IMG/VR virus record: IMGVR_UViG_3300020411_000752
Span: 1-20,602 of that record
Direction: 5' to 3' (one strand)
DNA from: a virus
DNA: 20,602 nt
The number at the start of each line of letters is the position of its first letter. The stretch's first letter is position 1. The position numbers were made by a program, and so were the translations under genes. The notes beneath the pieces were generated by a model, which was given only the letters and a program-made list of their open reading frames with translations, had not been told where the DNA came from and did no database searches. Below are positions 1 to 18,112 of this stretch, one piece after another.

Positions 1-1515
1 TTAGAATTCAATTACTACTTTTAGCTCTTCGTTTTGATCCGCAGATCTTGTGATCGGAATCCTATTATCTATGTACAATATTTCACCTGAGTTTAATTCA
101 ATCTCTTCGTTGGCATAACCAGTAACGAATGAAAGACCTAACTCATATACAGATACACCAATAGTTATCTGTGATAGTGGAACGGATGATGTTCCAAATG
201 TTGCGTCTGGAGTTGCAACATATGATGTTGTAGTACCAGTAATCTGATTTGTACCAGAAAATGCAATGATATTACCATTGACAGTACCGTCAACAGAATC
301 TTGATAATACTTCAAGACTTTAGTTGTAGAATCATAGGATACTACAAATCCTTTTGCCCCTGTAGATGTCTGTGTGATTGTTTCACCAGGTGCGAAGTTT
401 CCACTAGGTGTACCAGTACCAGACTGAGGGAAGATCATTGCCTTAACAGCAGATCTTGTGTTTTGACTACAAACAGTTGTAGTATTATAATCAAATGGGT
501 TTAGAACAAGACCAACCCTTCTATATGACAAATCATTAGGGAAATCAACAAATGCACTAGTAGTTTCTAACTTACTAGTAAACATAAGACGATATGCACC
601 TAATTCTCTAACAGCATCCGCACCGTGACCACCTTGAGGAGGTAATACAACGTCTAGAGATGCACCAGTACCATTACCAACATTAGTAATAAGATCAACA
701 TTAATGCTTGCAAAACTATATCCAGCACCTGCTTGAGTCACAGTCACTGAAGATACAGCACCAGAAACAACAGAAACTGTACAAAGTGCTTGAGTACCAC
801 CATTGATCTCCCAGTCACCACGAATAGGAACATTGGTATAATCACCATTGTTATAACCTGCACCAGCGTTCTCAATAACAACTGTGTCGATTGAACCTGG
901 GTTTGCAGCAGATGTAACTAAGCTATTTGATAATACAGGAACAAATTCTGAAGTAACAAACTTTAGAATGTTGTCAGCGTCAATAGTATAGAGATATTTC
1001 CAACGATAAGAATATACGCCAGGACTATCTGATGTTTCAATGATAGTTGTTGATGTACCAGTTGGTTCAACCAATGAAGGTCTACCTCTTGGGTAATCTG
1101 GATCTTGACCATTATAAAGACATTTATAGACGTTAAAGTCTGAATTCATAACATAAAAATTACTGTCATACAGTCTAGAAGAACCGTTTGCAGTAGTTTT
1201 TGCGGGTGCATAATCTGGTTTATACATTGAGTATGTACGTCCCACACCACCAGTTGTGTTTGCAGGATCAATCCAATCAACTCTAGGAACTACTAATGAA
1301 GTATCAGATATATCAACACGCTTAAAAGCAACGGAATCTTGATATGTAGTTCTTGCATACTCAAAACTATCAATAGGCTCACCAGCAGGTGGGATGTCAG
1401 AAGACCCCCATGTTTTCGCCCTACCGACGAACATGTACACTTTGTTGGAGCTTTGCAGAGTATTTCTGAAGCTCTCAGCAGCATATATTCTAAATTTATC
1501 AGTAACTAATGCCAT
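1..1515 (-). CDS. 8: Baseplate wedge subunit gp8-like, enlarged with two GSGY repeats
   Basis: Complete 504-aa gene; the TAA stop lies on the first three bases of the window. It resembles T4 gp8, a wedge protein that binds gp7 and gp10 at the baseplate periphery. Seen: an N-terminus of the type ALVTDKFRIY, VVPRVDW at residues 76-82, YKCLYN at 130-135, WKYLYTI at 172-178 followed by FVPV, and GGHGAD..ELGAYRLMF around 296-312. The corresponding T4 gp8 motifs (an IPRRDW-type and a WEYLFEI-type segment) match from memory. T4 gp8 is about 334 aa, so this protein is some 170 residues longer. Part of the extra length is two GSGY-type beta repeats at residues about 209-290, like those in the upstream giant gene. 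The start is ATG, 23 bases after the giant gene's stop. I see no strong Shine-Dalgarno, but an exact late-promoter motif (1536-1543) lies just upstream. Assignment as gp8 is fairly sure; the repeat insertion is seen directly. Confidence 0.88.
   Translation of the reverse strand: MALVTDKFRIYAAESFRNTLQSSNKVYMFVGRAKTWGSSDIPPAGEPIDSFEYARTTYQDSVAFKRVDISDTSLVVPRVDWIDPANTTGGVGRTYSMYKPDYAPAKTTANGSSRLYDSNFYVMNSDFNVYKCLYNGQDPDYPRGRPSLVEPTGTSTTIIETSDSPGVYSYRWKYLYTIDADNILKFVTSEFVPVLSNSLVTSAANPGSIDTVVIENAGAGYNNGDYTNVPIRGDWEINGGTQALCTVSVVSGAVSSVTVTQAGAGYSFASINVDLITNVGNGTGASLDVVLPPQGGHGADAVRELGAYRLMFTSKLETTSAFVDFPNDLSYRRVGLVLNPFDYNTTTVCSQNTRSAVKAMIFPQSGTGTPSGNFAPGETITQTSTGAKGFVVSYDSTTKVLKYYQDSVDGTVNGNIIAFSGTNQITGTTTSYVATPDATFGTSSVPLSQITIGVSVYELGLSFVTGYANEEIELNSGEILYIDNRIPITRSADQNEELKVVIEF
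645..891 (-). repeat. Two GSGY-type beta repeats inside gp8
   Basis: Two consecutive units are visible in the translation: IDTVVIENAGAGYNNGDYTN and VSSVTVTQAGAGYSFASIN, each followed by a small-residue-rich strand (TVSV; GNGTGASLDVV). The unit pattern (V-x-x-V-x-V-x-x-x-G-x-G-Y) is the one that recurs about 20 times in the adjacent giant protein. They replace or extend the region between the WKYLYTI motif and the C-terminal part of gp8. Confidence 0.8.
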
Positions 1516-1535: not shown

Positions 1536-1543
1536 TATTTATA
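1536..1543 (-). promoter_or_regulatory. T4-type late promoter TATAAATA ahead of gp8
   Basis: The minus strand reads TATAAATA exactly, the T4 late-promoter consensus recognised by the gp55 sigma factor with the gp33/gp45 co-activators. It overlaps the TAA stop of the giant gene (1539-1541) and ends 20 bases before the gp8 ATG, so a transcript would have a very short leader. Position relative to the gene start supports function; no experimental evidence is visible. Confidence 0.7.
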
Positions 1544-4500
1544 ATGATCTCAGACGAACTTCTGGAAGAAGACTTACGTTTCCGCTTGTTGTAAGACCAT
1601 AAGGAATTTCTACTGTAAATGAGGTAGTTCCAGTAACAGTAACTTTATAAGAACCATCAATAGAATGATCCACTCCGCTTACTGTCATACCACTCGTGAA
1701 ATCTAAGTACTGATACATGTCAGTAGTTAGATAATGAGCCGCGGAAGTCGTTACAGTACAGACGTTTCCACTTGAACTATATGTCCCAGTTAATATAGTG
1801 TGAGCATGGGCTGTTGTACCCCTATACCCTCTACCACCAGTTGCTACAGTTAATGTATTGGCAGATGTATTCTTTGCACCATAGAGAATTCTCTCTGCAG
1901 TCCAATGCTGCTTAACCGTATCATAGAACGGAATAATCACCTCTGCTTCATCTGGGAAACCATATTTCTGAGAAACATCGTACCAGACATTCTGGAGATT
2001 TAATGTAGTACTAGCAGCTGTTATATTACTAGTTAGGAAGGAATTGCCAAGAAGATTTGAATCTGAGATAATTCTATTTCTTTGCTTCCTTTCTAGATGT
2101 AATGGATGAGTTGGTAAAACTGTAGGAACACTAACATAACCATTACCACCTTTTAAGTTCTTAATACCAATAACTTTACCACTACCTTCTTCAATCTCTG
2201 TTTCGGCAAATGCACCTCCACCACCGCCACCTTGGAATAATAAGAATGGAGGATTTTCATAGTTAGAACCAGGATTAGTTATAGCAACCTGTGTTACTTG
2301 CCCACCTGTCACTGTAGCAACAAACTCAGCAACAGTTGGTCTTAAACCTACGTACTCATAACTGTCAATAGAAGTAGAACTAGAGACTGTAGCAATCAGT
2401 CTGTCATTTCCTTCACTCACAACTTGAAGTCTATCACCAGGATCAACAGAGTTGAATGTCTTGCTGACAAGAACGTCTTCTGCAGAACCACTAAAGATAA
2501 ACGCAGTGCAATCAGAACCTGCTCTTGGTGCTTCACTAAACTCAATAATAGATCCTCTCAAGTTATATGCTTTTTGAGGTTCTTGGAATACACCATTGAT
2601 AAAGATCAATAGGTTATTCGATGCAATAACAGAAGTATTATCAGATTCCAAGGATATTGGTTCATTATCCTTCTTCATAGTAAAGTTCTTCTTACTATTA
2701 TCAAAGAATGGTGTAAGATCATCAATAAGTTCCAACTTACCAAAGTAGAACCCATAGAAGTCCATTCCTGATAGAGGTGCTTCATTAAAGGTTAATGTGC
2801 TTCCAGTATATGTGTATGATTCTGTACTACCCTTAACCTGAAGTGTACTATTCAAGAAGATAAGGAAGTTATCCTGTGCGGGTAGTACTTGTGTACTACC
2901 GCCTACCTGAGCAGTAAATGTTGTATCAGTTCCATCAAATGTTGTAGTACCAACATCTACTTGGAAGAATGGGTTGGATGATGATGTTCTAGTGAAACTA
3001 TTAAGATTACCAGATCCACCTGCTGTAGTACCAACTGCAGTGGTGATAATATTAAAGAGAGTTGTGATAGTAGAAGCAACTGCGGTACAGTCATTTGTAT
3101 CATATACATCGTTACCACTATCATTAGTAATTGTAAGATCCTTAACCTGAGATCCTAGAGTCGTTGAGTTAGTTGTAACTGTGATATTACGCATAACTTC
3201 CTGACAAATATCTCTAGCAGCATTAAACACTGCTACTGATTCATCCTCTTCACCAGTTAGATGTACAGTTCCAACATAGAAACTTGCAACATCATAAGTT
3301 GCATCGTTTCCACCAAACTCTACGTTATCAGCGACAGCATCACATATTAACTTAGTATCACGAATACACTTGACCTTATAAAGATCACCATTGAAACTTG
3401 GGTTTGCTGCGAGCATCCTACCATATGCAGTAGTTGCAATAAACTCTAAGTTGTCACGTATAAGTCTTGCAGCATCAGCAACCTTGTTATATGCATAAAC
3501 TCCATGTGTAACAATACCCCTTGTGACAGCTGTAGAAGTGGCACTTACAAAGGTATGCCTATCACCTGTCTTAATAGCACCTGCATCCGCAGTTACAAAC
3601 TTATGAGTATAATTACCACCTGTAATAACTGAGTCTGCTAGGGCAGATACAAAGGTATGTGTATCAGTATTAGTAGAAGGTATGTTGGTTAGAACTTGAA
3701 CACTAATAGTTGTTGCTGTGGTTGCAATAACCTCTAATGCAGTGTCGTAGAATGGGTCACGTTTCTTCTCAAATGGTGCAATAGTAATAGAATCATTTTC
3801 TGCAGTAATGAATGTATGTACTGTAGTATTGGTAGAAGGAATAGTGTCTAGAACTTGAACTTCAAATGTATTAAATGTTACATTTGATACAGGAATAAAT
3901 TTACCACTTATAGGGTCAGTAGAACGAGGATAAGTTTTAGTTCCTACACCAGTTGTGCAAGTAAATTGCATCGAATCATCCTTGATCTTAATAAAGTCTC
4001 CATTGGATAATCCATGACCAACTTTAACACCATTTGTGGTAGCACTTACGAATGTATGAGGTACAGCATGACTGATAGCACCTTGCCCACCATTTACATT
4101 AACTGTGATTGTGGTGGGTGTGTATGCAGTGATAGGAACATCAACGTTGTAAACATAATCATTACCATTTGATCTTGGGTATGCCTTAGTCTGTGTTACG
4201 CCATTATATTCACAACTGAAGGATATTGATTCAGTGTCAATTCTTACTGTATCAATATCAGTCAATCCATGAGTTCCAACAGTTAGAACCATATCACCAG
4301 ATGTAGGATTATATGTTGCATCTGTTACAGTTAACTGTTTATGACTGACTGTCATTACACCTGTGGTTGGGTTATAGTCTGCACTCGATGGTGTCAACTT
4401 ACCTAATGTGCTGAATAAATGTGTATCTGTGTTAGTTGAAGGTATTGCATCTAAGACAGTAACGTCAAATGTATTAGTTGTAACATTTGATACCTTTAAC

Positions 4501-7500
4501 CACCTATCATAGGGGTAATCTGTAGTGCGTGGATACTGTTTTTTCTTAGTATTACCATCTAGGTTGCATGTGAATGTTAGTGATTCTGGTTTAAACTTAA
4601 TCCAATCATCTGCTACCATACCATGTGACGGTGAGGTAACTGTCATAACACCATTGTCAGGATTATAGTTAACTGCAGTTACGTCAAATCCATCTGTCAA
4701 TGATCTTGGATATGCTTTATCACCACCACTACCAAATGCACAGTTAAATGTTACAGCACCTTCTGCTAGTTTAATACTTGTACCAGATACAATATTATGA
4801 GAACCAATAGTAAGTTCCATAATTCCTGTAGTTCCACTGTATGTGGCATCTGTAGGTGTGTAAGTAACAAGAGGTGACTTACCAACGTTTACAGTAATAA
4901 CATTGCCTGAGATCGCTTTAACACCCAATGCAGCACCATCTGCAGGATCACCCTTACGAGGATATGCATGACGTGTTGCTCTATCATCCATCTCACAAGT
5001 ATAGATCAATCCATTCCTCTTAATTGTTACAAAATCTCTTGCCTGTCTAATACCACCTGTTACTGCGGATACAAATGTATGAGTAGTGGTGTTGGTTGAT
5101 GGAATAGTCTCTAGACATTGGATAGTAAATGTATTATTTGTTACATCAAAGATCTCTACAAATTTACCACTAATGGGGTCAGTTGATCTAGGGTATGTCT
5201 TAGTGCCTGCACCATGAGTGCAGTTGAATGATAATGAATCATCTACGATCCATACTCTGTCACCATTAGACATTCCATGACCAGTTACTGTAATTACAAC
5301 CTTACCATCTGCAGGTGTGTAAACAGCACCAGTTGCAGTATGTTCTATTGGAGCAAGCAAAGCATGTGCACCAATATCAAGTGTCACATCACCTGTTGCA
5401 GCATTGTATGTTGATGCTGTAGGTGTAAATTCAAATCTTTCATTCTTACCAACGTTTACAGTAAATGAATCAGTAGTTACACTATCAATCGTTAACCATG
5501 CACCATTTGCAGGATCAGCAATACGAGGATATGTGTGATTAGATTGATTATTATCTTTAGAGCATGTAAAGGTTAGTGAATCAGTAGCGAACTGTACTCT
5601 GTCACCCTTAAACATTCCATGAGCAGCTGCAGTAACTACCATAGTACCTGTTGCAGGTATGTACTTAACTTTTGTTGGTTGGAATTGATAAGTGCTTAAA
5701 CCTTGCCATGTATGAGCATCAGTGTTTGTAGGAGATGTGCCCTGTAGAGCATTGACTGTGATAGTAGTTGCACTTGTCGCAGTAATAGGAACATCAAATA
5801 GATTACCAATAGGATCTGTAGGACGTGGATATGCTGCAGTTCCACCGCCACCATAAGAACAACTGAATGTTAGGGCGTTATTAGCAATTCTAACTGTATC
5901 ATTAGTTGTTAAAGTGTGAGTACCAATAGTCAACACCAAATCACCACTAGCAGGTGTATAAGTTGCTGTAGAAGGAACGTAGTTAGTAGTTAACTGTTCT
6001 CCTATTTCAGATAAACCTAATACATCATCTTTTGTATATCCATTACCTGCTTGATTCAATACAACATTAGTTACCTTATTACCTGAGACTGTAATATCTG
6101 CAGTAGCACCACTACCAGATCCAAGATTATTCTTCAATGGTACATTGATATAAGTTCCATTTGAATATCCGCTACCTGGTGTTATTGCACCAAATGTCTT
6201 AATCTCATCTCCAATTTGATCCAACTGGAAACTACCTGTATAACTTGCACGATCATAGTACATCGCTAGTACAGTTGTACCACTCAATAATGGTTTGTCA
6301 AATGTTATAATATCGTTAGCGTAAGTATAATTTTCTGGATTTTGTACTATACTATTAGCAATAACAAATAGTTGATTCTTATCAGGTGTTTTACCCAACC
6401 TAGTAGACATTGGAGAACCATTGTTAGATAACTTAAATTGTGTATTTGTGCCATCAATAAAAGATCTAATTGTGTGACCACCACCTGATCCAACAGCACT
6501 TAAGTTAATTGAAGTTCCACCTGGTGTTTCTCTAAGTTCTATAGTATTTGCGTCAATGTATTTCACATAGTATGCATTACCATTTGCCAATCCTGTAATT
6601 GGAGTACCAGTTCTTACATTAGGATAATTACCTATATTTGGTTCAGGTAATGTAGATGGATTCTCAATACCATCAGTGATGATTTTTGCAAAGGATGTGA
6701 TGGCACTTGTGACAGTTGCACAACTGTCTGAGGCTACCGTAATACTGAGGTCAACTACTGGGTTTATAGTCGTGTATGTGCCAATTGGTAGGTTGTTGAC
6801 TATAGCAAGGTTACAGAGGTCTCTTGCTTTGTTGAAGGCATATATGGTCTCACTCTCCTCTCCTTCGATGTGTAAGATATGATTCGCAGGATTAGTTCTA
6901 GTTACAGAATTAAGACTATCAGAGCTAATAGCAGTGGTAACAATATTAAAGAGGGTGTCCATTGCAGCATCAACTGTAGCACAGATAGCAGCATCAAAGG
7001 TGACACCAGTATTAGTAACTTGAGTATAACCATGAGTTCCTTGAATAGTAATTGGAGTATTAACGATGATATTCGCTGCTAACTCTTTTGCCTTATTAAA
7101 CGCCCATATTGATTGTGTTTCTTCACCATCTAGGTGTACTGTATTCACATAGTAATTTGCAGCATCCCATACTTCACTATTTGATCCATATTGTAAGTTG
7201 TAAGCAATTGCTTCAACTACATCAACAATATCATCAATACAGTTTTGATCTCCACCAGGTACGCCAGGATAACCAGATGCAATACCAACAGTAGGATCAT
7301 TCAACATTAGATGAACTGCTTCAGCAGCAATCAAGTTCTTATTGTCTTTGAGTAGATTAGCAGCATCAATATAAGCATTGCCTAGTGGTACAACTGCACC
7401 AACATATGCATTCGCAGCAGTTAGTGAGAAGAAGTTACCACCATATCTCAAATCATTTGCCCATGCAGCAACAATTAATCTTGTATCTCTAGCACAGGTT

Positions 7501-10500
7501 GCTGAATTGTATTGTAAACTTGGATATGTAGCATTTAAGAAACCAATAGTCTCTTCTACGATATAATCAATATTTGAGATAATTAGATTTCTTGCATCTT
7601 GGAATCTATCACCACCAGAATTGTAGATAACACGTTGATCATCAATAAGATTATGATTCGTAAGTGTAATTCTATTACCAGATGTATCAACTACAGTAGA
7701 TGATGATCCATCGAAAGAAAGTGATCTATCTGTAATATCATCAATCTTATATGCGATACAAGATAAGATCTTCTGAATGTCTAATAACTGTTTACCAAAT
7801 ACCTGTATTTCAGTTGGAACAGCAGCACTATAATCAGGTTTACCAAGAGCAAAGTTTTTAATAACAGATAACTTACCAGTTGCCTTAGCAGATGGTTTAG
7901 GAATGATATATGTTGTACCGTTAAATGTAGTTCCTAGACTATTTGTTGTTGGAAGCCACCAATCAAATGAGTTACCAGCATTAAGGTTAAGAGATGATTT
8001 AGATCTAAAGGATTTAGTACTTGCTTGTGATAGTACTTGTGTACCAACAACTTTGAAACCTGCTGGGTGAGCAGCGAACTTAAGTGGACTTTTCCAATCA
8101 TTAATGTTGATAGATGACGATATATCATATGAAAATTCCTGATATCTGTCACTATCATATAGTCTTTGTTCGTTAAGGTCTAAGAAACCAGTTGTCTTCT
8201 CCCAGGTAGTTGCTGAGATACTAATAGGAGAAACCTCGAATACAGCATCTGCCCTAGTAAACTCATGAATCTGACCAAATGCAGCAGTCTCCTCACCAAA
8301 TACAGGTTCACCGACTACAAATTCACCTTCTACGATCTCTACACTAACAACACGCCCAGAAGCATCCCAGTTCTTAACAAATCCATATGCAGTATATGAT
8401 GCAGTAGATGCACCCTGATAGATCCTCTCTCCGACAGAGAAAGTAGCAGGTTTCATAAACGCAGTAATATTATCACCTAAGTCTGTTGTTTGTAATGTAA
8501 AGTATGTCTGACCTGTTAAGGCATCACCTACAGGTGCACTAGTAAATGATATAGTGTTACCAAGATTAGCATCTGCAAGGGTTGCAGCAAGTCTAATTTG
8601 GTTATCTGCTAATGCATTTGCTACAGTAGCAGCAACAGCATAATAAGTTGTATTTTCTGCTAATGGATTTGGAAACTGACCAGTAAGTTGCTGAAGTGTT
8701 ACTTTTGTACCTGTTGGTATCTTAGTATTGTATGGGAAGTTAAGAGTGCTATTAGACTGTAATCCAACCCATGTATGAGTTACTCTTGCTCTGACTGTAG
8801 GAGCAGCTAAGAAACCTCTACCCTCATTGATGATTTGAATAGATTGTATGACTTCATTCTCTATTCTTGCTTTTGTCTCAAATAGAGATCCTCCACCACC
8901 CTCAAGAACAATATCAGGTGTTGATACAAAGTTTGCACCACCATTAGTAATGGTAAAGTAATCTAGAACTTGAGTTCTTGTAAGTTGTAGATTATATGTT
9001 GTATTAAGTTCTGGTTTTAGAGTTCTATCGTGAGAATAGTTAAATGTAATATTATCTCCACCAATATTCAATATCTCACCCATGTTAGATGACTTAAGTA
9101 GTATAGAAGCACCTGAACCTGTTTTTTGAAGAATATTAACTACTGGAGCACTTTGATATTGAATACCACCACTTTCTATATTAATTGACTGTACACCTTC
9201 ATTAATAATAGTAGCGTTAAACGCTGCGTTGATTCCGTTACCACCAGTAACCTCAATGTTAGGAGCAGAGAGATAACCAGATCCACTGTTCGTAACAGTA
9301 ATACTGTCAACAGAAGCATCTAATAGAGTAGAGATGGTTGCAGGATTAGCATGTGCCAATCCGTTAACTGTCACAGTAAAGTCTTCGCTAGAAGCACCAC
9401 CTGGTATCTTTGTACCATCAAAAGTGATAACGTCACCTAGTGCATATGTACTACCGCCACCAGTAACGGTTATAGTTGCTATTCGTCCGTTACCGTCTGT
9501 GTTGACAGTAAATGTTGCACCTGTACCACCAACAGGAGCAACACTGGTTTGAGTTACCCCAGTGGTTGTTGTATCTGCGGTATATGTTCCGTTACCTGCT
9601 GGTTGAGTTATAGATGTAATCGTATCTACTGATCCATAATAGGGATCATCAAATATAATAGATGGAGCAGATCTATAGTTAGAACCAGGATTAGTAACAC
9701 TAACTTCATCTAGTGTACCACCACCAGATACTACAGTTGCCACAGTTGCCTGAGTTCCACTTATTGCACTGATAGATGCTTGTGAATCTGCACTGAATAC
9801 ATTATTGGTCTCAGCAGTACCAGTACTGAACATAATGTATCCTTTGTTACCTGCACCTGTTCTTTCGTTCCTAAGTGGTTTGATTCTTAATACTGTTGTA
9901 ATAGGGTTCCAATCAATTACTTGACCTCTAGCAGTCTGATTACCCTGTGTTGTTTGTGAAATAACAATCTCATTTTTAATAAATGATCCAAGTATATTTG
10001 AAAGTGTCAAATCAACATAATCTGGTAATGTAACAACTCCAGTTGGTAATGAACTGTTATTATAACCAGATCCAACGTTTGTAACTGATACATTAGATAA
10101 TGTTCCAGAAATAGTTGCAAAAGCAGTTGCACCAGATCCAGATCTAGTAGATGAACTTAATTTTGGAAGAGATGAGTAATTTCTACCAGGATCACCAATA
10201 GTAATTTTTGCAACTCCACCTGAGGGGTAAATTGAGTCTGTAGTAAATGATACACCTGTACTATAACCAACTTCGGGTGCTACTGCCATTTCGTAGGTTA
10301 TTGTAGTATCAGTTTTTGATTTGACTATTTGTGTGCCAACAATAGGATCATTAATCGCTATAAAGTAATTTCCACTCGTAGATCCTTGAATATCAAAATA
10401 ATAGAAGATGCCAGGTAAATCTTTGACTAATATTGTAATAGATGTCTGATCTCCAGTAATTGCATCTCTAACTTCATCAGTAATGTTCTTATAAGTGAAA

Positions 10501-13500
10501 ATATCGGTATTTGCCGAATCTAACGTAAATGCAAGTGTTTTTCCAACATTGCTAGAATCAGAAGTATCAAATGTGTATTTGTGCCCTTGTATAAGTTGTA
10601 ATTTTGGTTCTTGGACATAAACCTCGGCATTAGTGATTGTTGCAGATGCAATAGATGCAAAATTACGTTTTACGGTAAATTTCCTTAATGTTTCAGTACG
10701 GATAACCGTATAATCAGTTTTATCGTATCCTGATGGTGTAATACCCGAAATATTGACTATATCACCAGTTGAGACTTGATGAGCAAGATTACAGTGAACT
10801 TGTGCTTCAGTTTCTACTTGAGACAGTGTGAGAAGGAAACCTGACCCACCAGCGTTACCTAGGTTCAAATCTGTAATAGTAATTTGATCACCAACGTTAT
10901 ATGCAGTACCAGTCTCGGTAATTGTAACAGATGATACAGAACCACTAGAAACAACAACAGTTGCTCTACCACCTCTACCACTTTGTGTGTTTACGTTATT
11001 TTTGATAGGAACGTTTGTATATGTACCATCTAGGTAACCAGAACCCAATGAACCAACTGTCCAACCACCTTGATACAAATTACCGTCTGTACGTTTCCTA
11101 AGATACGTCCAAGTCATTGCACCATCAGTTGCAGTGCCAGATTCATGAGTTGGTGCAGAAGAACCAGATGTAGAACTCACTGCTGCTTGATAAACTCTAT
11201 CTTGAACGTAAATTAAGTCTCCTTGAGTATATGCAGTAGTATTTGCATATGCAGCAATGAGTTTCATGCTTGTTACGTCAAAATAGCTAAAATGATACTT
11301 GCTGCTTATAATTTTAGTCTTAATAATTCTTGTGTATAGATTATCCTCTACAGTAACTGTAATAATGTCATTTGGTTGCAAATAATGAAATCCTGCGGTT
11401 GTAATAGTCGCAGAATGAACATCGGTGTTTGCATCAATTGCCATTGCCAAGTTATTGACAGTTTCACCTTGTACTTGAGATACAATTGCACTAATACCTT
11501 CTCCACCAGTGCCAGTATTGTCAAATTGAAGTCTATCGTTAACTTTATACTCTTTACCACCACCCTCAACTAGGTATTGGTCAACACCTGCAGATGAATA
11601 CTTGTTTGTTGCTGAAACCACCATAGAATCAGCACTACCACCTCTAATGACTGGATAGTAACTGTAATACCCAATTCCATCTTCAAGATAAGTCAATATC
11701 TCACCAGTCTCCATCACAATCAAAGTTGTGGTGTCTTCTAGTGCCAAAAAGAAGTCAACTCTATTATCAAGTTTCTTTCTCTTTGCTACAATGTTATCTG
11801 TACCGATAAATGGTGCTTTATATCTAATTGCATCTTCTGTAAAGTTTTTCTGCAGACCATTACCATTCCAGTTGACAGCATCCGCTTCTGAGTAGAAATT
11901 AGGTCCTATAAAGTAAGGAAACTTAGGTTCACCAGCAGAACCTTTGATTGTAGCAAAATATGCATAAACTCCATTTGGATATTCTGGAGTAACGCAAAAT
12001 CTTCCATTATATTGATCTAAATCTCCAGACCCTTCCGTATATTCATAATCTTCAATATAAGTCCCCATAGGGTCTGCTAGACCGCTTAGAAGAGCATCTC
12101 TAGAGGTCTTTACATCATAACTAGAAAGCATCAACTTATATGAATTAAATGGAGCTGCATTTTGTGGATCTTCAAAACCATAAGGTCCATATATGGGATG
12201 TCCGTCGTATGCCCACCCTATAATTGGTGAATGAGCAGTAGGGTTCAGTTCTTGCAATGATTCATTGATATTATCCCTTAGTAAAAATCTAAGTTGCTTA
12301 GGATTATACAAATATCCATATTCTCCACCATATATCAAATAGTTCTCACCTTGCATCGTTGCACCGTTTGCAGGGTCTACAGTTTTCCTATTTGTAAATT
12401 GATTTGAAGAAACACCTAGTTCTGAGAATGTTGCTGCTTCATTATATGTCAATTCTGTTAGATTAGTCTGGAATACTGCACCTGCACCTGGATATACGAT
12501 ACTAACAGTTGTAGCACCTGCGGTATAACCTGCACCCTTGTTCGTTATGACAACACCAGTAACAATATTAGATGATAGGTCTACTTGAGCAAATGCAGTT
12601 GCACCAACTCCGTCTCCAGTGATAACAACATCTGGAGCACCAAAATATCCAGTACCACCAAATGTAACAATAATACTTTCGATCTTTCCGTTCAATATAG
12701 ACGGATATGCAACAGCACCACTACCAGAGATCAAATTGATAGTTGGTTCGTAATCATATTGAGTTCCTGCATTAGTAATGTTAATTGCATCAACAGGACC
12801 TCGACAAGTTGCAGTTGCAGTTGCCCCTTGACCATTTCCACCAGTGATTGTGATGGTAGGAACGCTAGTGTAACCAGATCCACCACTAACAACGTTGATG
12901 CCAGTAACTGTACCAGATGTAATCACTGCTGATGCAGATGCTTGATTATCTGAGGTTGCACCACCACCAGTAATAGACACAATAGGTTCTGTTGTATATC
13001 CACTACCACCATTAGTTACGTTTATAGCAGTAACTGATCCTTTTACTGTAACAGTTGCTTCAGCAGGTGTTCCCTCATAAATCCAGTTGATTTGACCAAT
13101 TGCTTGCTCACCAGAAGTGTGTGTTGGGTATAATGTAGATGATGATATACCTGCAGAAAGAGACCTATACCTATTTCCATTATATTTGACTCTTATACCA
13201 GAAGCATAGGGTGTATTAAGTTTGTAGTCTGATTCAAACTCAACTGTAGGAGGGTTTGTGATATCATAACCTGCTCCACCATTGACTTTAGTGATTGACT
13301 TCAATCCACCAAACTTTTTCTTAGATTCTCCTTTATATGAAAAGAATGGTACGCCATTTGCACCAATACCAACCTGACCTACTGGAGTAGCAGTTTTTGT
13401 ACTCTTAGTAGATGGTACAAGTGGAATTCTCTTAAGATATCTTTGGTTGCCAGGATTTAAGTCCCCAGAACCAAAAGGACCTACCTTATGCGATGGTACA

Positions 13501-15254
13501 CCTGTACTAGCGATGATAGCATCTGTACTACTCTTGTATGTGTTCTGTATATCTGTCGTAAAGTCTTTGATTCCAACATTAATGGAGTTGTAGTCACTTC
13601 TACCAAAAGCAAACTCTCTAGCAATGTAAAATTCAAAGTTTGATATACCGCCAGCTGGCGATGATGAAAATATAAACTCAAACTCAAACTCATTAACAAT
13701 ACCTGCAACATCATGTTGGTTATTATAGATGTCCTCAGGGGCATTGAGGATTCTAATAATGTCATCTCTTTTTAAACGATGTTTCTCTTTTGTTCTAACA
13801 GTACAACGTACCGAACCATCTGGATTGACCTGTCCTAGGGTCGCAGACTCCCCTCTCAGTGCCTTTCTAACATTGTATATAAAACTATCCCATATTGGAT
13901 CAATGCTATCAAAACCTGGTGCTGCAGGTGTTGTGATTTTACTATCTGGAAGATAATACTTACCACCACTACTTAATACGACACCTCTAGTACCACCATA
14001 TACTTTTAACTGAATTTCAGAGTTGTCTATGTTAGAATATCCAAAAATCTTGAATGCAGCGAATACTTCTTGACCTGCATCATGTGCTACGCATAGTGTA
14101 TCCTCTCTAGCACGTGTGCATCCTAAAAACTGAGTTACAGTTTTGTTTCCATAAGTAATGACCTCATCTTCAATTCTAAATCGACCATTTTGCTCTGGCC
14201 AACCAATTGTAGAATCAACTGTGACTACTTGGTCAGTTAAATTACCTCCAAGGTCAGAAGCAAGGGTAGATTTGTATGGTGTAACAAATGTACCTAATGA
14301 ATTATTGGTATCTACGTCAATTTCAAAGATTGTACCACTTGCAGTGAATACTTCTACAACTCCTTTGACATAAATGCGTGCAGCTGCAACATTTGGGTCA
14401 TTTGCGTCGTCTTCTTGGTATAATACTTGTCCTACAAGGTCAATAGGGTTTCCAGAAACTGCTGTAGCACGAATTACCTCTCTAGAAGTGTAATATGCGT
14501 CTGATGGTTTGAATATTCGGTCTCTTGGGTAGTTAACTTCTGATTCTACGCCAAATAGTGTCCTTAAGACGAACTGGAATGACCTTGTTGACCCCTTTGC
14601 AGCATAGAAGTCTTTAATTCTCTTAATTACAGTTGATTCAGTAACTCCAGATGCAAAATTCTTCGGAAATGTCGATAAAAACTGTTCTTTGAACTTTCCA
14701 AGAACGTAAAGTGGGAAAATGTTGTTTAAATTAACAACTTTTGTTCCAAGTTCGTGTGTTGCAGCAGTTGTATTCTCAAATTGGTAAGTTCCAACCTCTC
14801 CAACTGCCTTTACAGCGTTAAATCCTCTTGCACAATCTTGAAATAGTGTAGATCCTTTCTTTTGGTAGTAAATGATCTCGTCATCTACAAGCAAAAGACC
14901 CTCATCTGGAAAATCACGAGTAGATTCAACGTCAACTGCATCTGAAGTAGTTGTTAACGCTGAAATTAGTTTAGTTTCAGTAACTAGACCGCCGTAATTA
15001 TCAATATTATAGTAATCTGACCAGTTTTGAATTACATCAAAACAATATCCCTTTAATTCTTGTGATTTATAGTAATGCTTAACAAATGATATGAAGGTTG
15101 GATAATTATCCTGCACAAACGAAGCAAACTGTCCCGTAACAATTAGGGATATTTGCGATTTCGATTCAGGACTAACCTCAGACGGTACTGGAGGTACAGA
15201 TACCGTTGTGGTTGGCGTAGTCCACGAGCTAACCTTCCATGAAGAATTTGTCAT
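1539..15254 (-). CDS. 7: Giant 4571-aa baseplate wedge protein in the gp7 position
   Basis: One uninterrupted 13.7-kb frame between gp6 and gp8, the place of gene 7 in T4. T4 gp7 is about 1032 aa, so this is over four times longer. Residues ~40-300 hold a stretch like part of T4 gp7: F.SFV..YY, then RIKDFYAAKGSTRSFQF.LRTLFG at about 210-235 and DLVGQVLY near 272. Later modules, in order: two 'EIIxY...GC.R' modules (~95-165 and ~335-395); GSGY beta repeats (~650-930); a YHYH-like domain (~985-1130); more GSGY repeats (~1395-2155), with a cupredoxin-like stretch (~1549-1638) among them; helical cassettes (~2549-2868); an NGV-Q module (~2942-3005); eight YPR cassettes (~3090-3914); one more helical cassette (~3915-4078); two NGV-Q modules (~4110-4256); and a third 'EIIxY' module (~4405-4488) before a 'TTSAAH' domain. 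I see no signal peptide or transmembrane segment. It starts 7 bases after the gp6 stop. The gp7 relationship is inferred from synteny and motifs; what the extension does is unknown, with a tail-fibre-like appendage or host contact as the likeliest role. Confidence 0.85.
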   Translation of the reverse strand: MTNSSWKVSSWTTPTTTVSVPPVPSEVSPESKSQISLIVTGQFASFVQDNYPTFISFVKHYYKSQELKGYCFDVIQNWSDYYNIDNYGGLVTETKLISALTTTSDAVDVESTRDFPDEGLLLVDDEIIYYQKKGSTLFQDCARGFNAVKAVGEVGTYQFENTTAATHELGTKVVNLNNIFPLYVLGKFKEQFLSTFPKNFASGVTESTVIKRIKDFYAAKGSTRSFQFVLRTLFGVESEVNYPRDRIFKPSDAYYTSREVIRATAVSGNPIDLVGQVLYQEDDANDPNVAAARIYVKGVVEVFTASGTIFEIDVDTNNSLGTFVTPYKSTLASDLGGNLTDQVVTVDSTIGWPEQNGRFRIEDEVITYGNKTVTQFLGCTRAREDTLCVAHDAGQEVFAAFKIFGYSNIDNSEIQLKVYGGTRGVVLSSGGKYYLPDSKITTPAAPGFDSIDPIWDSFIYNVRKALRGESATLGQVNPDGSVRCTVRTKEKHRLKRDDIIRILNAPEDIYNNQHDVAGIVNEFEFEFIFSSSPAGGISNFEFYIAREFAFGRSDYNSINVGIKDFTTDIQNTYKSSTDAIIASTGVPSHKVGPFGSGDLNPGNQRYLKRIPLVPSTKSTKTATPVGQVGIGANGVPFFSYKGESKKKFGGLKSITKVNGGAGYDITNPPTVEFESDYKLNTPYASGIRVKYNGNRYRSLSAGISSSTLYPTHTSGEQAIGQINWIYEGTPAEATVTVKGSVTAINVTNGGSGYTTEPIVSITGGGATSDNQASASAVITSGTVTGINVVSGGSGYTSVPTITITGGNGQGATATATCRGPVDAINITNAGTQYDYEPTINLISGSGAVAYPSILNGKIESIIVTFGGTGYFGAPDVVITGDGVGATAFAQVDLSSNIVTGVVITNKGAGYTAGATTVSIVYPGAGAVFQTNLTELTYNEAATFSELGVSSNQFTNRKTVDPANGATMQGENYLIYGGEYGYLYNPKQLRFLLRDNINESLQELNPTAHSPIIGWAYDGHPIYGPYGFEDPQNAAPFNSYKLMLSSYDVKTSRDALLSGLADPMGTYIEDYEYTEGSGDLDQYNGRFCVTPEYPNGVYAYFATIKGSAGEPKFPYFIGPNFYSEADAVNWNGNGLQKNFTEDAIRYKAPFIGTDNIVAKRKKLDNRVDFFLALEDTTTLIVMETGEILTYLEDGIGYYSYYPVIRGGSADSMVVSATNKYSSAGVDQYLVEGGGKEYKVNDRLQFDNTGTGGEGISAIVSQVQGETVNNLAMAIDANTDVHSATITTAGFHYLQPNDIITVTVEDNLYTRIIKTKIISSKYHFSYFDVTSMKLIAAYANTTAYTQGDLIYVQDRVYQAAVSSTSGSSAPTHESGTATDGAMTWTYLRKRTDGNLYQGGWTVGSLGSGYLDGTYTNVPIKNNVNTQSGRGGRATVVVSSGSVSSVTITETGTAYNVGDQITITDLNLGNAGGSGFLLTLSQVETEAQVHCNLAHQVSTGDIVNISGITPSGYDKTDYTVIRTETLRKFTVKRNFASIASATITNAEVYVQEPKLQLIQGHKYTFDTSDSSNVGKTLAFTLDSANTDIFTYKNITDEVRDAITGDQTSITILVKDLPGIFYYFDIQGSTSGNYFIAINDPIVGTQIVKSKTDTTITYEMAVAPEVGYSTGVSFTTDSIYPSGGVAKITIGDPGRNYSSLPKLSSSTRSGSGATAFATISGTLSNVSVTNVGSGYNNSSLPTGVVTLPDYVDLTLSNILGSFIKNEIVISQTTQGNQTARGQVIDWNPITTVLRIKPLRNERTGAGNKGYIMFSTGTAETNNVFSADSQASISAISGTQATVATVVSGGGTLDEVSVTNPGSNYRSAPSIIFDDPYYGSVDTITSITQPAGNGTYTADTTTTGVTQTSVAPVGGTGATFTVNTDGNGRIATITVTGGGSTYALGDVITFDGTKIPGGASSEDFTVTVNGLAHANPATISTLLDASVDSITVTNSGSGYLSAPNIEVTGGNGINAAFNATIINEGVQSINIESGGIQYQSAPVVNILQKTGSGASILLKSSNMGEILNIGGDNITFNYSHDRTLKPELNTTYNLQLTRTQVLDYFTITNGGANFVSTPDIVLEGGGGSLFETKARIENEVIQSIQIINEGRGFLAAPTVRARVTHTWVGLQSNSTLNFPYNTKIPTGTKVTLQQLTGQFPNPLAENTTYYAVAATVANALADNQIRLAATLADANLGNTISFTSAPVGDALTGQTYFTLQTTDLGDNITAFMKPATFSVGERIYQGASTASYTAYGFVKNWDASGRVVSVEIVEGEFVVGEPVFGEETAAFGQIHEFTRADAVFEVSPISISATTWEKTTGFLDLNEQRLYDSDRYQEFSYDISSSININDWKSPLKFAAHPAGFKVVGTQVLSQASTKSFRSKSSLNLNAGNSFDWWLPTTNSLGTTFNGTTYIIPKPSAKATGKLSVIKNFALGKPDYSAAVPTEIQVFGKQLLDIQKILSCIAYKIDDITDRSLSFDGSSSTVVDTSGNRITLTNHNLIDDQRVIYNSGGDRFQDARNLIISNIDYIVEETIGFLNATYPSLQYNSATCARDTRLIVAAWANDLRYGGNFFSLTAANAYVGAVVPLGNAYIDAANLLKDNKNLIAAEAVHLMLNDPTVGIASGYPGVPGGDQNCIDDIVDVVEAIAYNLQYGSNSEVWDAANYYVNTVHLDGEETQSIWAFNKAKELAANIIVNTPITIQGTHGYTQVTNTGVTFDAAICATVDAAMDTLFNIVTTAISSDSLNSVTRTNPANHILHIEGEESETIYAFNKARDLCNLAIVNNLPIGTYTTINPVVDLSITVASDSCATVTSAITSFAKIITDGIENPSTLPEPNIGNYPNVRTGTPITGLANGNAYYVKYIDANTIELRETPGGTSINLSAVGSGGGHTIRSFIDGTNTQFKLSNNGSPMSTRLGKTPDKNQLFVIANSIVQNPENYTYANDIITFDKPLLSGTTVLAMYYDRASYTGSFQLDQIGDEIKTFGAITPGSGYSNGTYINVPLKNNLGSGSGATADITVSGNKVTNVVLNQAGNGYTKDDVLGLSEIGEQLTTNYVPSTATYTPASGDLVLTIGTHTLTTNDTVRIANNALTFSCSYGGGGTAAYPRPTDPIGNLFDVPITATSATTITVNALQGTSPTNTDAHTWQGLSTYQFQPTKVKYIPATGTMVVTAAAHGMFKGDRVQFATDSLTFTCSKDNNQSNHTYPRIADPANGAWLTIDSVTTDSFTVNVGKNERFEFTPTASTYNAATGDVTLDIGAHALLAPIEHTATGAVYTPADGKVVITVTGHGMSNGDRVWIVDDSLSFNCTHGAGTKTYPRSTDPISGKFVEIFDVTNNTFTIQCLETIPSTNTTTHTFVSAVTGGIRQARDFVTIKRNGLIYTCEMDDRATRHAYPRKGDPADGAALGVKAISGNVITVNVGKSPLVTYTPTDATYSGTTGIMELTIGSHNIVSGTSIKLAEGAVTFNCAFGSGGDKAYPRSLTDGFDVTAVNYNPDNGVMTVTSPSHGMVADDWIKFKPESLTFTCNLDGNTKKKQYPRTTDYPYDRWLKVSNVTTNTFDVTVLDAIPSTNTDTHLFSTLGKLTPSSADYNPTTGVMTVSHKQLTVTDATYNPTSGDMVLTVGTHGLTDIDTVRIDTESISFSCEYNGVTQTKAYPRSNGNDYVYNVDVPITAYTPTTITVNVNGGQGAISHAVPHTFVSATTNGVKVGHGLSNGDFIKIKDDSMQFTCTTGVGTKTYPRSTDPISGKFIPVSNVTFNTFEVQVLDTIPSTNTTVHTFITAENDSITIAPFEKKRDPFYDTALEVIATTATTISVQVLTNIPSTNTDTHTFVSALADSVITGGNYTHKFVTADAGAIKTGDRHTFVSATSTAVTRGIVTHGVYAYNKVADAARLIRDNLEFIATTAYGRMLAANPSFNGDLYKVKCIRDTKLICDAVADNVEFGGNDATYDVASFYVGTVHLTGEEDESVAVFNAARDICQEVMRNITVTTNSTTLGSQVKDLTITNDSGNDVYDTNDCTAVASTITTLFNIITTAVGTTAGGSGNLNSFTRTSSSNPFFQVDVGTTTFDGTDTTFTAQVGGSTQVLPAQDNFLIFLNSTLQVKGSTESYTYTGSTLTFNEAPLSGMDFYGFYFGKLELIDDLTPFFDNSKKNFTMKKDNEPISLESDNTSVIASNNLLIFINGVFQEPQKAYNLRGSIIEFSEAPRAGSDCTAFIFSGSAEDVLVSKTFNSVDPGDRLQVVSEGNDRLIATVSSSTSIDSYEYVGLRPTVAEFVATVTGGQVTQVAITNPGSNYENPPFLLFQGGGGGGAFAETEIEEGSGKVIGIKNLKGGNGYVSVPTVLPTHPLHLERKQRNRIISDSNLLGNSFLTSNITAASTTLNLQNVWYDVSQKYGFPDEAEVIIPFYDTVKQHWTAERILYGAKNTSANTLTVATGGRGYRGTTAHAHTILTGTYSSSGNVCTVTTSAAHYLTTDMYQYLDFTSGMTVSGVDHSIDGSYKVTVTGTTSFTVEIPYGLTTSGNVSLLPEVRLRSL
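1790..2040 (-). repeat. C-terminal copy of the 'FP.E..I.Y...G..RG..AH' module
   Basis: Residues ~4405-4488 of the giant protein read as STTLNLQNVW, then FPDEAEVIIPFYD, then ERILYGAK, then GRGYRGTTAHAH. The same layout (V-x-ST-x-x-FP-x-x-G, D-E-I-I-x-Y, G-C-x-R-G/A, A-H) occurs twice near the N-terminus, at nt about 14740-14960 and 14070-14260. Finding it at both ends of one protein suggests a reusable beta module rather than a gp7-specific element. Confidence 0.55.
2120..2310 (-). repeat. GSGY beta repeats, C-terminal pair of the giant protein
   Basis: Two units: VTQVAITNPGSNYENPPFLL followed by a run of seven glycines, interrupted once by a serine-free stretch (QGGGGGGAF), and VIGIKNLKGGNGYVSVPTVL. 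They precede the third 'EIIxY' module. This is the last pair in the giant protein; two further units occur in gp8, the next gene. Confidence 0.75.
2490..2925 (-). repeat. Two NGV-Q modules (LIFxNgxxQ...Y...F..aP.aG)
   Basis: Two copies of a roughly 60-residue beta module: one with DNFLIFLNSTLQVKG..SYTYTG, then FNEAPLSG, and one with NNLLIFINGVFQEPQKAYNL, then FSEAPRAGS. A third, more distant copy (NQLFVIANSIVQNPENYTY, then FDKPLLSG) lies at nt 6240-6430. Similar modules are common in marine phage structural proteins. They are probably trimerising or spacer beta domains; no catalytic residues are evident. Confidence 0.6.
3020..3510 (-). repeat. Helical cassette, third copy (AR.I..N..FI..CI.DT..GGN)
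   Basis: Residues ~3915-4078 read as AARLIRDNLEFIATTAYGRM, CIRDTKLICDAVADNVEFGG, VHLTGEEDESVAVFNAARDI and CTAVASTITTLFNIITTAV. The same four blocks in the same order occur in the 6650-7610 region. The predicted helical character and the conserved Cys, Asp-Thr and GGN positions set this apart from the surrounding beta repeats. Confidence 0.65.
3515..5985 (-). repeat. Eight-fold YPR cassette array (HGM..GD...F.C...YPR.TDP..G)
   Basis: About 820 residues (~3090-3914) consist of eight diverged cassettes. A full cassette is: Y.P..G...V....HGM..GD.V......L.F.C, a short loop ending in YPR..DP..G, then .....V....F.V.V...IPSTNT..HTFVSA. The YPR anchors lie near nt 5825, 5525, 5185, 4955, 4705, 4525, 4165 and 3925. 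Spacing is irregular (about 180-360 bases), and some cassettes are truncated: the fourth lacks the HGM half and the fifth lacks the tail. Two cassettes (near 5185 and 3925) share the exact peptide KTYPRSTDPISGKF while their DNA differs at many third positions, so the duplication is old and selection acts on protein. Confidence 0.85.
6030..6215 (-). repeat. GSGY beta repeats between the helical and YPR blocks
   Basis: Two units, FGAITPGSGYSNGTYINVPL and VTNVVLNQAGNGYTKDDVL. They follow the first NGV-Q module and directly precede the YPR array. The first unit closely resembles one at nt ~11040 (LGSGYLDGTYTNVPIKNN) and one in gp8 (AGAGYNNGDYTNVPI), which defines a 'GTYTNVP' sub-type of this repeat. 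Confidence 0.72.
6650..7610 (-). repeat. Helical cassettes, copies one and two
   Basis: Residues ~2549-2868 contain two 'R..LI..N..YI.E' blocks: ARNLIISNIDYIVEETIGFL with CARDTRLIV...DLRYGGN, and AANLLKDNKNLIAAEAVHLM with CIDDIVDVVEAIAYNLQYGS. These are followed by two 'GEE' blocks (VHLDGEETQSIWAFNKAKEL and LHIEGEESETIYAFNKARDL). Each 'GEE' block ends in a 'C.TV..A...F..I.T' helix (ICATVDAAMDTLFNIVTTAI; SCATVTSAITSFAKIITDGI). They are amphipathic and probably helical in an otherwise beta-rich protein. Function unknown. Confidence 0.68.
8790..11070 (-). repeat. GSGY beta repeats, central set of about ten units
   Basis: Units recognisable in the translation lie near nt 11040, 10930, 10210, 10090, 9700, 9480, 9310, 9190, 8960 and 8840. 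Examples are VDSITVTNSGSGYLSAPNIE, LSNVSVTNVGSGYNNSS and IATITVTGGGSTYALGD. The consensus is V-x-x-I-x-V-T-x-x-G-S-G-Y-x-x-x-P-x-I-x-I-x-G-G-x-G. A cupredoxin-like stretch (10340-10610) and unrelated linkers interrupt the set. Units are strongly diverged in DNA, so they are protein-level repeats. Confidence 0.82.
10340..10610 (-). other. Cupredoxin-like stretch in the giant protein
   Basis: Residues ~1549-1638 show L.LIQGHKYTFDTSDSSN, then KTLAFTLDSAN, ending in DLPGIFYYFDIQGSTSG. This layout (L.G..Y.FD.SDSSN...L.FS ... YYYC..H) resembles plastocyanin-like modules that I recall from other marine phage virion proteins. The usual Cys and His metal ligands of a cupredoxin are not visible, so if the fold is right this is a structural relic rather than a copper site. 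The assignment is tentative. Confidence 0.4.
11880..12300 (-). other. YHYH-like domain with the signature degenerated to YAYF
   Basis: Residues ~985-1130 of the giant protein contain HSPIIGWAYDGHPIYGPYGF, followed by about 55 residues to DYEYTEGSGDLDQYNGRFC and YPNGVYAYFATI. This order (HSP.IG.A.DG.PIYGPYG, then LD..NGRF..TPEYP.G.Y.Y) is the hallmark of the YHYH family (PF14240-type). The eponymous tetrapeptide appears as YAYF. YHYH domains occur in bacterial secreted proteins and in marine phage structural proteins; their biochemical role is not settled. An Asp/His-rich first half could bind metal, which is inference only. Confidence 0.75.
12460..13310 (-). repeat. GSGY beta repeats, N-terminal tandem set of six units
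   Basis: Six near-consecutive units lie near nt 13290, 13030, 12910, 12795, 12680 and 12550, for example VTAINVTNGGSGYTTEPIVS and VTGINVVSGGSGYTSVPTIT. The last five have a period of about 115-130 bases (roughly 40 residues). An inserted loop separates the first unit from the second. This is the most regular part of the repeat system and is likely to form a continuous beta structure. Confidence 0.85.
14355..15137 (-). other. gp7-like segment at the N-terminus of the giant protein
   Basis: Residues ~40-300 carry the part that connects this giant to T4 gp7: a helix-like F.SFV..YY region, then ESTVIKRIKDFYAAKGSTRS with F.LRTLFG and E...YPRD, and then IDLVGQVLYQ. From memory, T4 gp7 has, in its C-terminal half, a DFYSTKG..ASYKFLFKVLY block followed about 35-40 residues later by DLVGQTIY. 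Order and spacing agree. If right, the gp7 wedge-binding part sits at the N-terminus here, and the extra length was added after it. Confidence 0.6.
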
Positions 15255-15261
15255 CTGTTAA

Positions 15262-17115
15262 TTAGTTATAGCTGGACTCTGGCACTACTCCTGTACCAGA
15301 TAAGTTTGAACCACTACTGATAGTGTCTTCTATTACACTCACAGTCGTATTATCTATACCTATTGTCAAATAGGTTTCTCTCAATGAAATCAAATCATTT
15401 GATTCTGGACTAGCAGCAATCTGTAATTGATTATTTGCTACACTTGTAGACGAAATGATCAAATCATTAACAACAATTTCGCCCATATTATAATCTACAG
15501 ATCCCCATAGACCATCAACATACTCAAATTCACCAGTTCCCTTGATATAATACAATCTCAATAGACCTGCACCATCGTCATTTAAGTAATAAGTGTTGAA
15601 ATCATCTCCAACAACCTTAAATCCACTGCTGTATACACAGGGTTTTGCACTTGTTCCTTGCTTAATGCGGTTACCATAGCATATTTTATAGTTCACACGT
15701 GCACCAAGTTCCACTGTCACGTTCTTTCTCATCTTGAGACGAGTGATATTTGAAGTAATTGAGGTCTCTGCACGATCAATTATACCTTGAAGCTTAGAAT
15801 ATTTGAATTTTCCGCCAAATTTATTGAATTCTCCGCTACTATTAAGCAAAGTTAACGAAGAAAGTACAGCATTTTTGACTTGAGACGCTTCTTTCCGCGT
15901 AACATTTGGGTTAAAGTACACAAAAGTGTTAATATCAATGTATAAAATGGACGGATCAATGATTGTGGGTTGAATTGCAGCAACAGAATACTCTCTCAAC
16001 CTTTTCAAAATGACATTTTTCTCAGAAAGAGATAATTTGTCTGCATTTTTTGGTTTAATTGCTAAGAAAACTTTTCCATATTCGGGTGGTTCTGCTTCTT
16101 CACCACCATAACAAGCAATAGATCCTATGTTTGGATATATTTGTGGAAGAATTGCTTCATAATCTCTTGTAGAAACTGCTCTACCAAATGCAGAATAGAA
16201 TTTTGGTGCAGCAAATTTTATTGATTCTGTGGTTTCTGCTCTTGAACCTCCATCTGGGAAAGAAGTAGCAGTAATAGTAATACCACTTGTAATTGTATTT
16301 GAATTGTTGTCTCTAAATGTACCAATATTTTCAAACACTTTTAGACCATTTGCACCAGTTCCACTAGATGTAGAATAAGATACGCTTATGACATCTCCAT
16401 TTAATAAATCTTTTCCAACCTTTCCGTCACCAAACAGAATTTCTGGGATCTCATATTCAGATTCTTCTAAGAAAAATACCTTAGAGGTAGAATCAATCTT
16501 TGTAATATCGGTTGCTTGTAGGTATCTTTCTGTAATTGTACCAGAAGTTACCTCAACTCTCATAGAAGTTGTGTCTGCATTCTTATTAGTAAGTATAAAT
16601 CTCTGTCTCTGATTGATGTTTTTTACAAAAGTATCTGTAAGGAATACTCCCTCAAACAATGTAACACCTTTAAACGTTGCAATTCCACTTGTACTGTCAA
16701 CACTTTGTGTCGTATCTGTACCAAGTGAGAATACAAAGTTGTTATTATCTAATCCTGTGAAGTTTAAAACCAATCCTTTGTTGATTGTAACAGTTTTTGG
16801 GTATGGAACTACAGTCTGAACTGATACATCAACCACACATTGTGCAGATCTTGCTGATTTTGGAGTGTAACCAATCATTCTAGCAAGTTTTACTACGTTT
16901 TCACGCAAAACAGCAGTCTCTAGGAACCCTTCATTGACTGCAAGGTTCGCATTGACTGCTGTATAGTAAGTATTATACGCTAAAATGTCTAAAAGCACCG
17001 TCAAAGACGATCCTTCAAAGTCATAATCACTGAATTGATCTTGACTTCTTAAGTAATCTTTAATTTGTGCCTTTATCTCGTTAAATTCGAGGGCGTTGAC
17101 CTGATTAAATGCCAT
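15262..17115 (-). CDS. 6: Baseplate wedge subunit gp6
   Basis: 617 aa, against about 660 aa for T4 gp6. gp6 dimers link neighbouring wedges into the inner baseplate ring, which holds the sheath-initiating parts and opens on infection. Seen: the N-terminal block FNEIKAQIKDYL..Q..F.DYDFEGS at residues 11-36, then LDILAYNTYYTAVNANLAVN and an L-R-E-N-V-V-K-LAR-MIGY segment. These match the T4 gp6 N-terminus (DYDFEGS.L.VL.D.LAYNT.Y). The middle holds the J-like baseplate core, with STRDYEAILPQIYPNIGSIA and a typical 'F.AIKPK' strand. The ATG overlaps the gp25 stop by one base (TAATG), which suggests coupled translation. The stop is 7 bases before the giant gene. No truncation or odd residues seen. 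Identification is secure. Confidence 0.95.
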   Translation of the reverse strand: MAFNQVNALEFNEIKAQIKDYLRSQDQFSDYDFEGSSLTVLLDILAYNTYYTAVNANLAVNEGFLETAVLRENVVKLARMIGYTPKSARSAQCVVDVSVQTVVPYPKTVTINKGLVLNFTGLDNNNFVFSLGTDTTQSVDSTSGIATFKGVTLFEGVFLTDTFVKNINQRQRFILTNKNADTTSMRVEVTSGTITERYLQATDITKIDSTSKVFFLEESEYEIPEILFGDGKVGKDLLNGDVISVSYSTSSGTGANGLKVFENIGTFRDNNSNTITSGITITATSFPDGGSRAETTESIKFAAPKFYSAFGRAVSTRDYEAILPQIYPNIGSIACYGGEEAEPPEYGKVFLAIKPKNADKLSLSEKNVILKRLREYSVAAIQPTIIDPSILYIDINTFVYFNPNVTRKEASQVKNAVLSSLTLLNSSGEFNKFGGKFKYSKLQGIIDRAETSITSNITRLKMRKNVTVELGARVNYKICYGNRIKQGTSAKPCVYSSGFKVVGDDFNTYYLNDDGAGLLRLYYIKGTGEFEYVDGLWGSVDYNMGEIVVNDLIISSTSVANNQLQIAASPESNDLISLRETYLTIGIDNTTVSVIEDTISSGSNLSGTGVVPESSYN

Positions 17116-17504
17116 TATGGTTTAAATGCTATATCAATAGAATCAAAGGTTGGTGGTAAACCCATAATAACGTATGCTACGCTTACATCTAACTGATTAC
17201 GATCCTCAGTCCACTTAGTCTTAATCTCATATACTGCCACTCTAGGCTCATACGTATTAATAGCTTTCTTTAATCGACGCTTTATCTTCTGTGCATCGTT
17301 AGGTGTATAATTCTCAAATAGCAATCCGATGACATTACCACCGAATGCTGGATCAAAAGGTTTCTCGTAGAAATTGTAAAATACAATATTTTTAACTGAT
17401 TCCTTTATGGCTGATTCATTATTCAGTGCCAAAATATCATTTGTCACTGCGTTCTTTTCAAAAGTCAACGAGAAGTCACGAAATGACTTCGATATTAATG
17501 CCAC
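17115..17504 (-). CDS. 25: Baseplate wedge subunit gp25 (GTG start)
   Basis: 129 aa, against 132 aa in T4. gp25 is the small wedge protein that binds the gp6-gp7 core and helps nucleate sheath assembly; homologues exist in contractile injection systems (the TssE/gp25 family). Seen: SLTFEKNAVTNDILALNNE and AIKESVKNIVF near the N-terminus, then a P-F-D-P-A-F-G segment and the invariant EPRV at about residues 91-94. The start is GTG (GTG-GCA-TTA), preceded at about 7 bases by TAGG as a modest Shine-Dalgarno. An exact TATAAATA late promoter lies 28 bases upstream, making this the first gene of the wedge operon. It ends in TAATG with gp6. Confidence 0.95.
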   Translation of the reverse strand: MALISKSFRDFSLTFEKNAVTNDILALNNESAIKESVKNIVFYNFYEKPFDPAFGGNVIGLLFENYTPNDAQKIKRRLKKAINTYEPRVAVYEIKTKWTEDRNQLDVSVAYVIMGLPPTFDSIDIAFKP

Positions 17505-17820: not shown

Positions 17821-17823
17821 AAT

Positions 17824-18111: not shown

Positions 18112-18112
18112 G

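Follow-up and report, generated by a model that had tools for sequence, protein, structure and literature searches.

A 4571-residue protein in the gp7 slot of a cyanophage baseplate locus carries a gp7-like core split by an insert of about 2030 residues

The gp7 protein of phage T4 (1032 aa in record NC_000866, our reference) is a baseplate wedge protein that is present in six copies (PMC3004832; PDB 5IV5 and 5HX2). Other gp7-like proteins have been linked to the attachment of spikes and fibres. In Vibrio phage XM1, the gp7 homologue holds the spikes by means of an internal loop and a C-terminal tail (PMC10457771), and the gp7-like part of extracellular injection systems touches the fibres and has been termed a hotspot of evolutionary re-engineering (PMC8894135). 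Cyanomyoviruses do not have the T4 genes g10, g11 and g12 (PMC2984593). The protein encoded in the gp7 slot of S-CREM2 (ORF122/gp122) is represented by 91 unique peptides, with 27% coverage, in mass spectrometry of purified virions (PMC10665884).

The window examined here is an entire virus contig of 20,602 bases, cut off from the genome around it. On its minus strand, a single ATG frame of 4571 codons without an internal stop runs from position 15254 to position 1539 and encodes a protein of 488.5 kDa, referred to below as giant gp7. By Pfam and PHROGs matches, the gene is flanked upstream by that of the wedge protein gp6 (15262-17115, minus strand), with gp25 (17115-17504, minus strand) beyond it, and downstream by gp8 (504 aa, 1-1515, minus strand). 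These neighbors bear out the initial annotation, which had recognized an intact 13.7-kb frame in the gp7 slot and had put its product at more than four times the length of T4 gp7 (the ratio is 4.4). Because the window is a fragment of a genome, the remark that the frame fills two thirds of it holds as a share of the contig and not as a share of the genome. The protein's size is ordinary among marine cyanophages: slot proteins reach 5195 aa in P-SSM2, 6603 aa in P-RSM4, 3048 aa in S-PM2, 3007 aa in S-SSM7 and 1937 aa in S-CREM2, and Eurybiavirus isolates have the same gene. Giant slot proteins match PHROGs families with 4179 and 6136 positions, the first 300 residues of giant gp7 match 494 phage records, and the database labels on such proteins vary between 'gp7', 'structural protein' and 'hypothetical'.

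The window's phage is a marine, T4-like cyanophage related to Eurybiavirus, whose members are phages of Prochlorococcus. The closest isolates are the Prochlorococcus phages P-HM2, P-HM1 and MED4-213, with 78-79% identity in the first 300 residues and 65% overall, and the P-HM2 homologue (79% N-terminal identity) already carries the annotation gp7. The proteins of these three isolates resemble the window's in slot and gene order and have the split core, YHYH domain and arrays described below. They differ from it in two respects: the window's insert is about 250 residues shorter than that of P-HM2 (~2030 vs. 2279 aa), and the window's tail has an additional helical cassette and additional beta repeats.

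To relate the slot protein to T4, we aligned nine slot proteins (cyanophage, pelagiphage and phages of Methylophilales, Stenotrophomonas and Sinorhizobium) over their first ~280 residues and built an N-core profile. In the window, this N-core spans residues 27-300 (14355..15176, minus strand) and matches residues 725-797 of T4 gp7; compared with T4-type gp7, the profile gave an hhalign probability of 96% (E 1.9e-9), and its top two matches among 177,635 PDB sequences were both T4-type gp7 (E 2.9e-6 and 6.5e-6). A second segment, the C-core, lies at residues 2341-2420 (7995..8234, minus strand), contains the motif YQEFSY..W..LK...HPAGF and matches T4 gp7 residues 863-896 (hhalign probability 87%, E 4.1e-6). 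Its top two PDB matches were again T4-type gp7, with E values (0.013 and 0.073) that are weak when taken alone, and counterparts of it are present in all nine aligned slot proteins. The reverse search, with a T4-type gp7 model beginning at residue 650, recovered both segments in the correct order in giant proteins, at 190-221 and 2423-2463 in S-SSM7, 693-722 and 3460-3494 in P-RSM4, and 192-271 and 2491-2552 in P-SSM2. The T4-type C-terminal model also found both segments in P-HM2 and, weakly, in the window. The initial annotation had pointed to residues 1-320 as the place to look for gp7 similarity; the first half of the core does lie there, and the second half lies some two thousand residues further on.

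The window's own sequence scored only 7.5 bits against the T4-derived model, and the link to T4 runs via its relatives. Core models from which the window and P-HM2 had been left out gave 191 bits for the window's N-core and 56 bits for its C-core, and the maximum reached by the full core models on 200 shuffles was 6.2 bits. A model of T4 gp7 residues 1-650 matched none of the giant proteins examined (S-SSM7, P-RSM4, P-SSM2, P-HM2 and the window's). We regard this part of T4 gp7 as an elaboration of T4 and do not treat it as defining the family, because the 242-aa XM1 gp17 has itself been called a T4 gp7 ortholog (PMC10457771). T4 gp7 and the giant protein thus share gene order and both core segments, and differ in that the N-terminal 650 residues of T4 gp7 lack a counterpart in the window and its core halves are only ~66 residues apart, compared to ~2030 in the window. 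The gp7 identity proposed at the outset can be retained, but only for a core of ~350 residues split in two. We also considered whether a separate gp7 might lie elsewhere, and found none among nine complete relatives, although the window's own genome is a fragment. In these nine, the N-core occurs once per genome and only in the slot gene (in two pieces in P-RSM4), and the remaining N-core matches are a ~60-residue accessory module. Taken together, the sequence comparisons support assignment of the slot protein as a gp7 baseplate-wedge protein on the basis of its split core.

The insert that separates the two halves occupies residues 301-2340 (8235..14354, minus strand). It contains a first GGSGYT-type beta array at residues 641-914 (12513..13334), a YHYH domain (PF14240) at residues 915-1104 (11943..12512) and a second GGSGYT-type array at residues 1671-2160 (8775..10244), all on the minus strand. 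A small beta module within the N-core, at residues ~90-175 (14730..14987, minus strand), is repeated near residues 330-400; in P-RSM4, ~500 extra residues are found inside the N-core at this module, in addition to an insert of ~2640 residues between the halves. The YHYH domain is also present in the inserts of P-HM2, P-RSM4, S-PM2, S-SSM7 and P-SSM2. The GGSGYT beta module also occurs twice in the neighboring gp8, at residues ~205-296, and has therefore spread between adjacent baseplate genes.

Across IMG/VR contigs and P-RSM4, insert length ranged from 203 to ~2640 aa overall and was narrow within each lineage. In the IMG/VR contigs, inserts measured 203-236 aa in the Stenotrophomonas type, 443-482 aa in the HTVC008M type, 1509-1569 aa in the S-PM2 type (with one at 2472), 2107-2116 aa in the S-SSM7 type and 2109-2197 aa in the P-SSM2 type (with one at 2410), and the window's own type fell into two sub-groups of 2026-2040 and 2270-2290 aa. 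The split core with an insert is common to the slot proteins of P-SSM2, P-RSM4, S-PM2, S-SSM7 and S-CREM2, whose insert and tail lengths differ by lineage. A compact layout is seen in Stenotrophomonas phage Yut3, with a slot protein of 503 aa, and in pelagiphage HTVC008M, with one of 1016 aa: both core halves lie in one chain, with inserts of only 203-236 and 443-482 residues, respectively, and no match to the YHYH domain or the beta-repeat tail. In the IMG/VR survey, all complete frames with an N-core also contained a C-core, with the exception of four frames of 223 to 749 aa that look broken or truncated.

Beyond the C-core, a tail of ~2150 residues (residues 2421-4571; 1542..7994, minus strand) completes the protein. 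It comprises helical cassettes at residues 2549-2870 (6645..7610), tandem beta repeats at residues 3086-3912 (3519..5999) and a further helical cassette at residues 3913-4100 (2955..3518), all on the minus strand. Self-comparison confirmed as repeats the mixture of beta arrays and helical cassettes that had been noticed earlier. One copy of the helical cassette (about 2618-2790) is missing from P-HM1 and similar contigs, and the beta repeats are the most variable part of the protein. The S-CREM2 gp122 protein has both the N-core and the C-core, the latter at its very end (residue 1925 of 1937), and is thus nearly tailless; its virion peptides are direct evidence for this relative and not for the window's phage. 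In S-SSM7, matching beta repeats are carried on a separate gene, SSSM7_103, which identifies the tail as a detachable module. At that locus (L003, 19980-39074), a gene annotated as tail-fibre connector lies between the core gp7 and another giant protein, which bears the tail repeats of the window's protein; the arrangement is a natural split of the modules of the window's gp7.

The reading that we favor, with a probability of roughly 0.8, is that the protein is a gp7 wedge core with a very large internal insert and C-terminal tail placed at the baseplate periphery, which is the site of fibre binding in gp7-like proteins elsewhere. The chain would open with the N-core, a predicted helix-turn-helix plus helices, depart from the core for ~2030 residues of beta arrays and YHYH domain, return at residues 2341-2420 to complete what may be a single folded core, and finish in the modular tail. 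Like T4 gp7 and its homologues, the core would be expected to pair with gp6, which would put a single chain in each wedge and six in the baseplate; six copies would amount to 2.9 MDa, compared to 0.7 MDa for T4 gp7. The insert and tail would then project outward for fibre or receptor contact, perhaps as the long protruding structure imagined in the initial annotation, and probably replace the T4 gp10/gp11/gp12 periphery and take over the jobs of separate fibre-attachment proteins. As described, the spikes of XM1 gp17 attach at sites comparable in kind to the insert and tail, which makes these loops putative equivalents. Few proteins of these phages are larger than the giants, which may face the host, so their inserts and tails are good places to search for host-range determinants of phages infecting Prochlorococcus and Synechococcus.

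The insert and tail could instead serve as a spacer, skirt or shield and not as an adhesin or fibre holder. We regard this as unlikely, though it is the strongest of the competing explanations. It would fit the repetitive beta modules with no recognized catalytic or receptor-binding domain, and an insert length that is constant per lineage (the two sub-groups of the window's type, for example) is what a structural span would be expected to show. However, the beta repeats of the tail diverge rapidly in length and sequence (alignment to P-HM2 leaves 369 of their 827 residues opposite gaps), as is often the case in host-facing parts, and the YHYH domain is common to the inserts of several lineages. 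A broader version of the peripheral wedge-core reading, which we put forward tentatively and hold to be somewhat less than an even bet, is that the gp7 core of T4-like phages acts as a scaffold with fixed sites at which insertions are tolerated. In marine cyanophages, one internal site and the C terminus would have taken up thousands of residues, which assumed the roles of the entire baseplate periphery (gp10, gp11, gp12 and fibre docking) in a single chain per wedge.

A second alternative is that the chain is cleaved after synthesis, with the tail or insert domains becoming separate baseplate or fibre proteins. In S-SSM7, separate genes encode the core and the beta-repeat tail, which indicates that the modules can work apart. 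Nonetheless, almost every complete contig in the survey keeps the two core halves in a single frame, and we consider cleavage improbable.

Structure prediction gave models of low confidence. AlphaFold reached a mean pLDDT of 42.6 for the compact HTVC008M homologue (1016 aa, 15 sequences) and a pLDDT of 62 for residues 27-1115 of the window's protein as a single chain. In a comparison of the low-confidence 27-1115 model with the PDB, 5iv5_BJ, probably T4 gp7 judging from its 1004 residues, ranked twelfth, with an E value of 0.013. Low-TM matches to phage endosialidases and the Pam1 tailspike dominated this comparison and were not taken as evidence, and two Pfam families, carbohydrate-binding module 5/12 and PF23786 ('Baseplate_wedge'), matched only below the cut-off.

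The literature disagrees on which gene is gp7 in cyanomyophages, and T4 gp7 has been said to be absent in cyano- and pelagimyophages, apparently replaced by VrlC (PMC7029224). If so, the giant would be some other structural protein that merely occupies the slot. The slot protein, however, matches both core halves, whereas VrlC matched neither core profile (hhalign probability 0.2% for the N-core and 0.04% for the C-core), and a split-core gp7 occurs alongside a VrlC-like gene in HTVC008M, in Sinorhizobium phage phiM12 and in S-CREM2. We therefore find replacement by VrlC very hard to credit, and the sequence comparison settles the question in favor of the slot gene. A literature search of incomplete coverage turned up no earlier account of the split core. 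The novelty seems to lie in this architecture and in the resolution of gp7 and VrlC, as the gp7 annotation itself is already known in close relatives. The conserved two-piece core offers a means of annotating proteins in the gp7 slot that are labeled only 'structural' or 'hypothetical'.

The repeats are long and alike enough (up to 44-46% identity) for misassembly to inflate a frame, but there is next to no chance that this produced the giant gene, because contigs from other metagenomes (L006, L007 and L013; 90-91% identity) are of equal length with no indel >4 aa over the alignment to residue ~3650, and the isolates P-HM2, P-HM1 and MED4-213 carry single frames of 4454, 4446 and 4458 aa in the same place. 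From base composition, we estimated the probability of a random frame of this length at 38% GC to be ~e^-300. Across the gene, dN/dS was ~0.22, indicating purifying selection, with dS near saturation. The ratio was 0.07-0.18 in the two core segments, which are among the best-conserved parts of giant gp7, and ~0.5 in the beta-repeat array at residues 3086-3912, the least constrained.

Several neighboring genes and labels also deserve mention. The P-HM2 protein PHM2_094 (L085 27651-34922, 2423 aa) was considered as a gp7 and rejected; it has no gp7 core and shares only repeats, from which its gp7 label, a probable misannotation, appears to stem. In the window, a small minus-strand gene at ~17553-17747, between the PAAR gene and gp25, has 80% identity to P-HM2 PHM2_083 and falls within a 124-aa frame (17535-17909). 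The PAAR protein itself (17824-18156) has 81% identity to PHM2_082, and its gene overlaps a 165-aa frame at 18113-18610. The product of this last frame has 70% identity to PHM2_081, whose annotation as a 'toxin' is doubtful, because by eye the product resembles a beta-rich structural protein.
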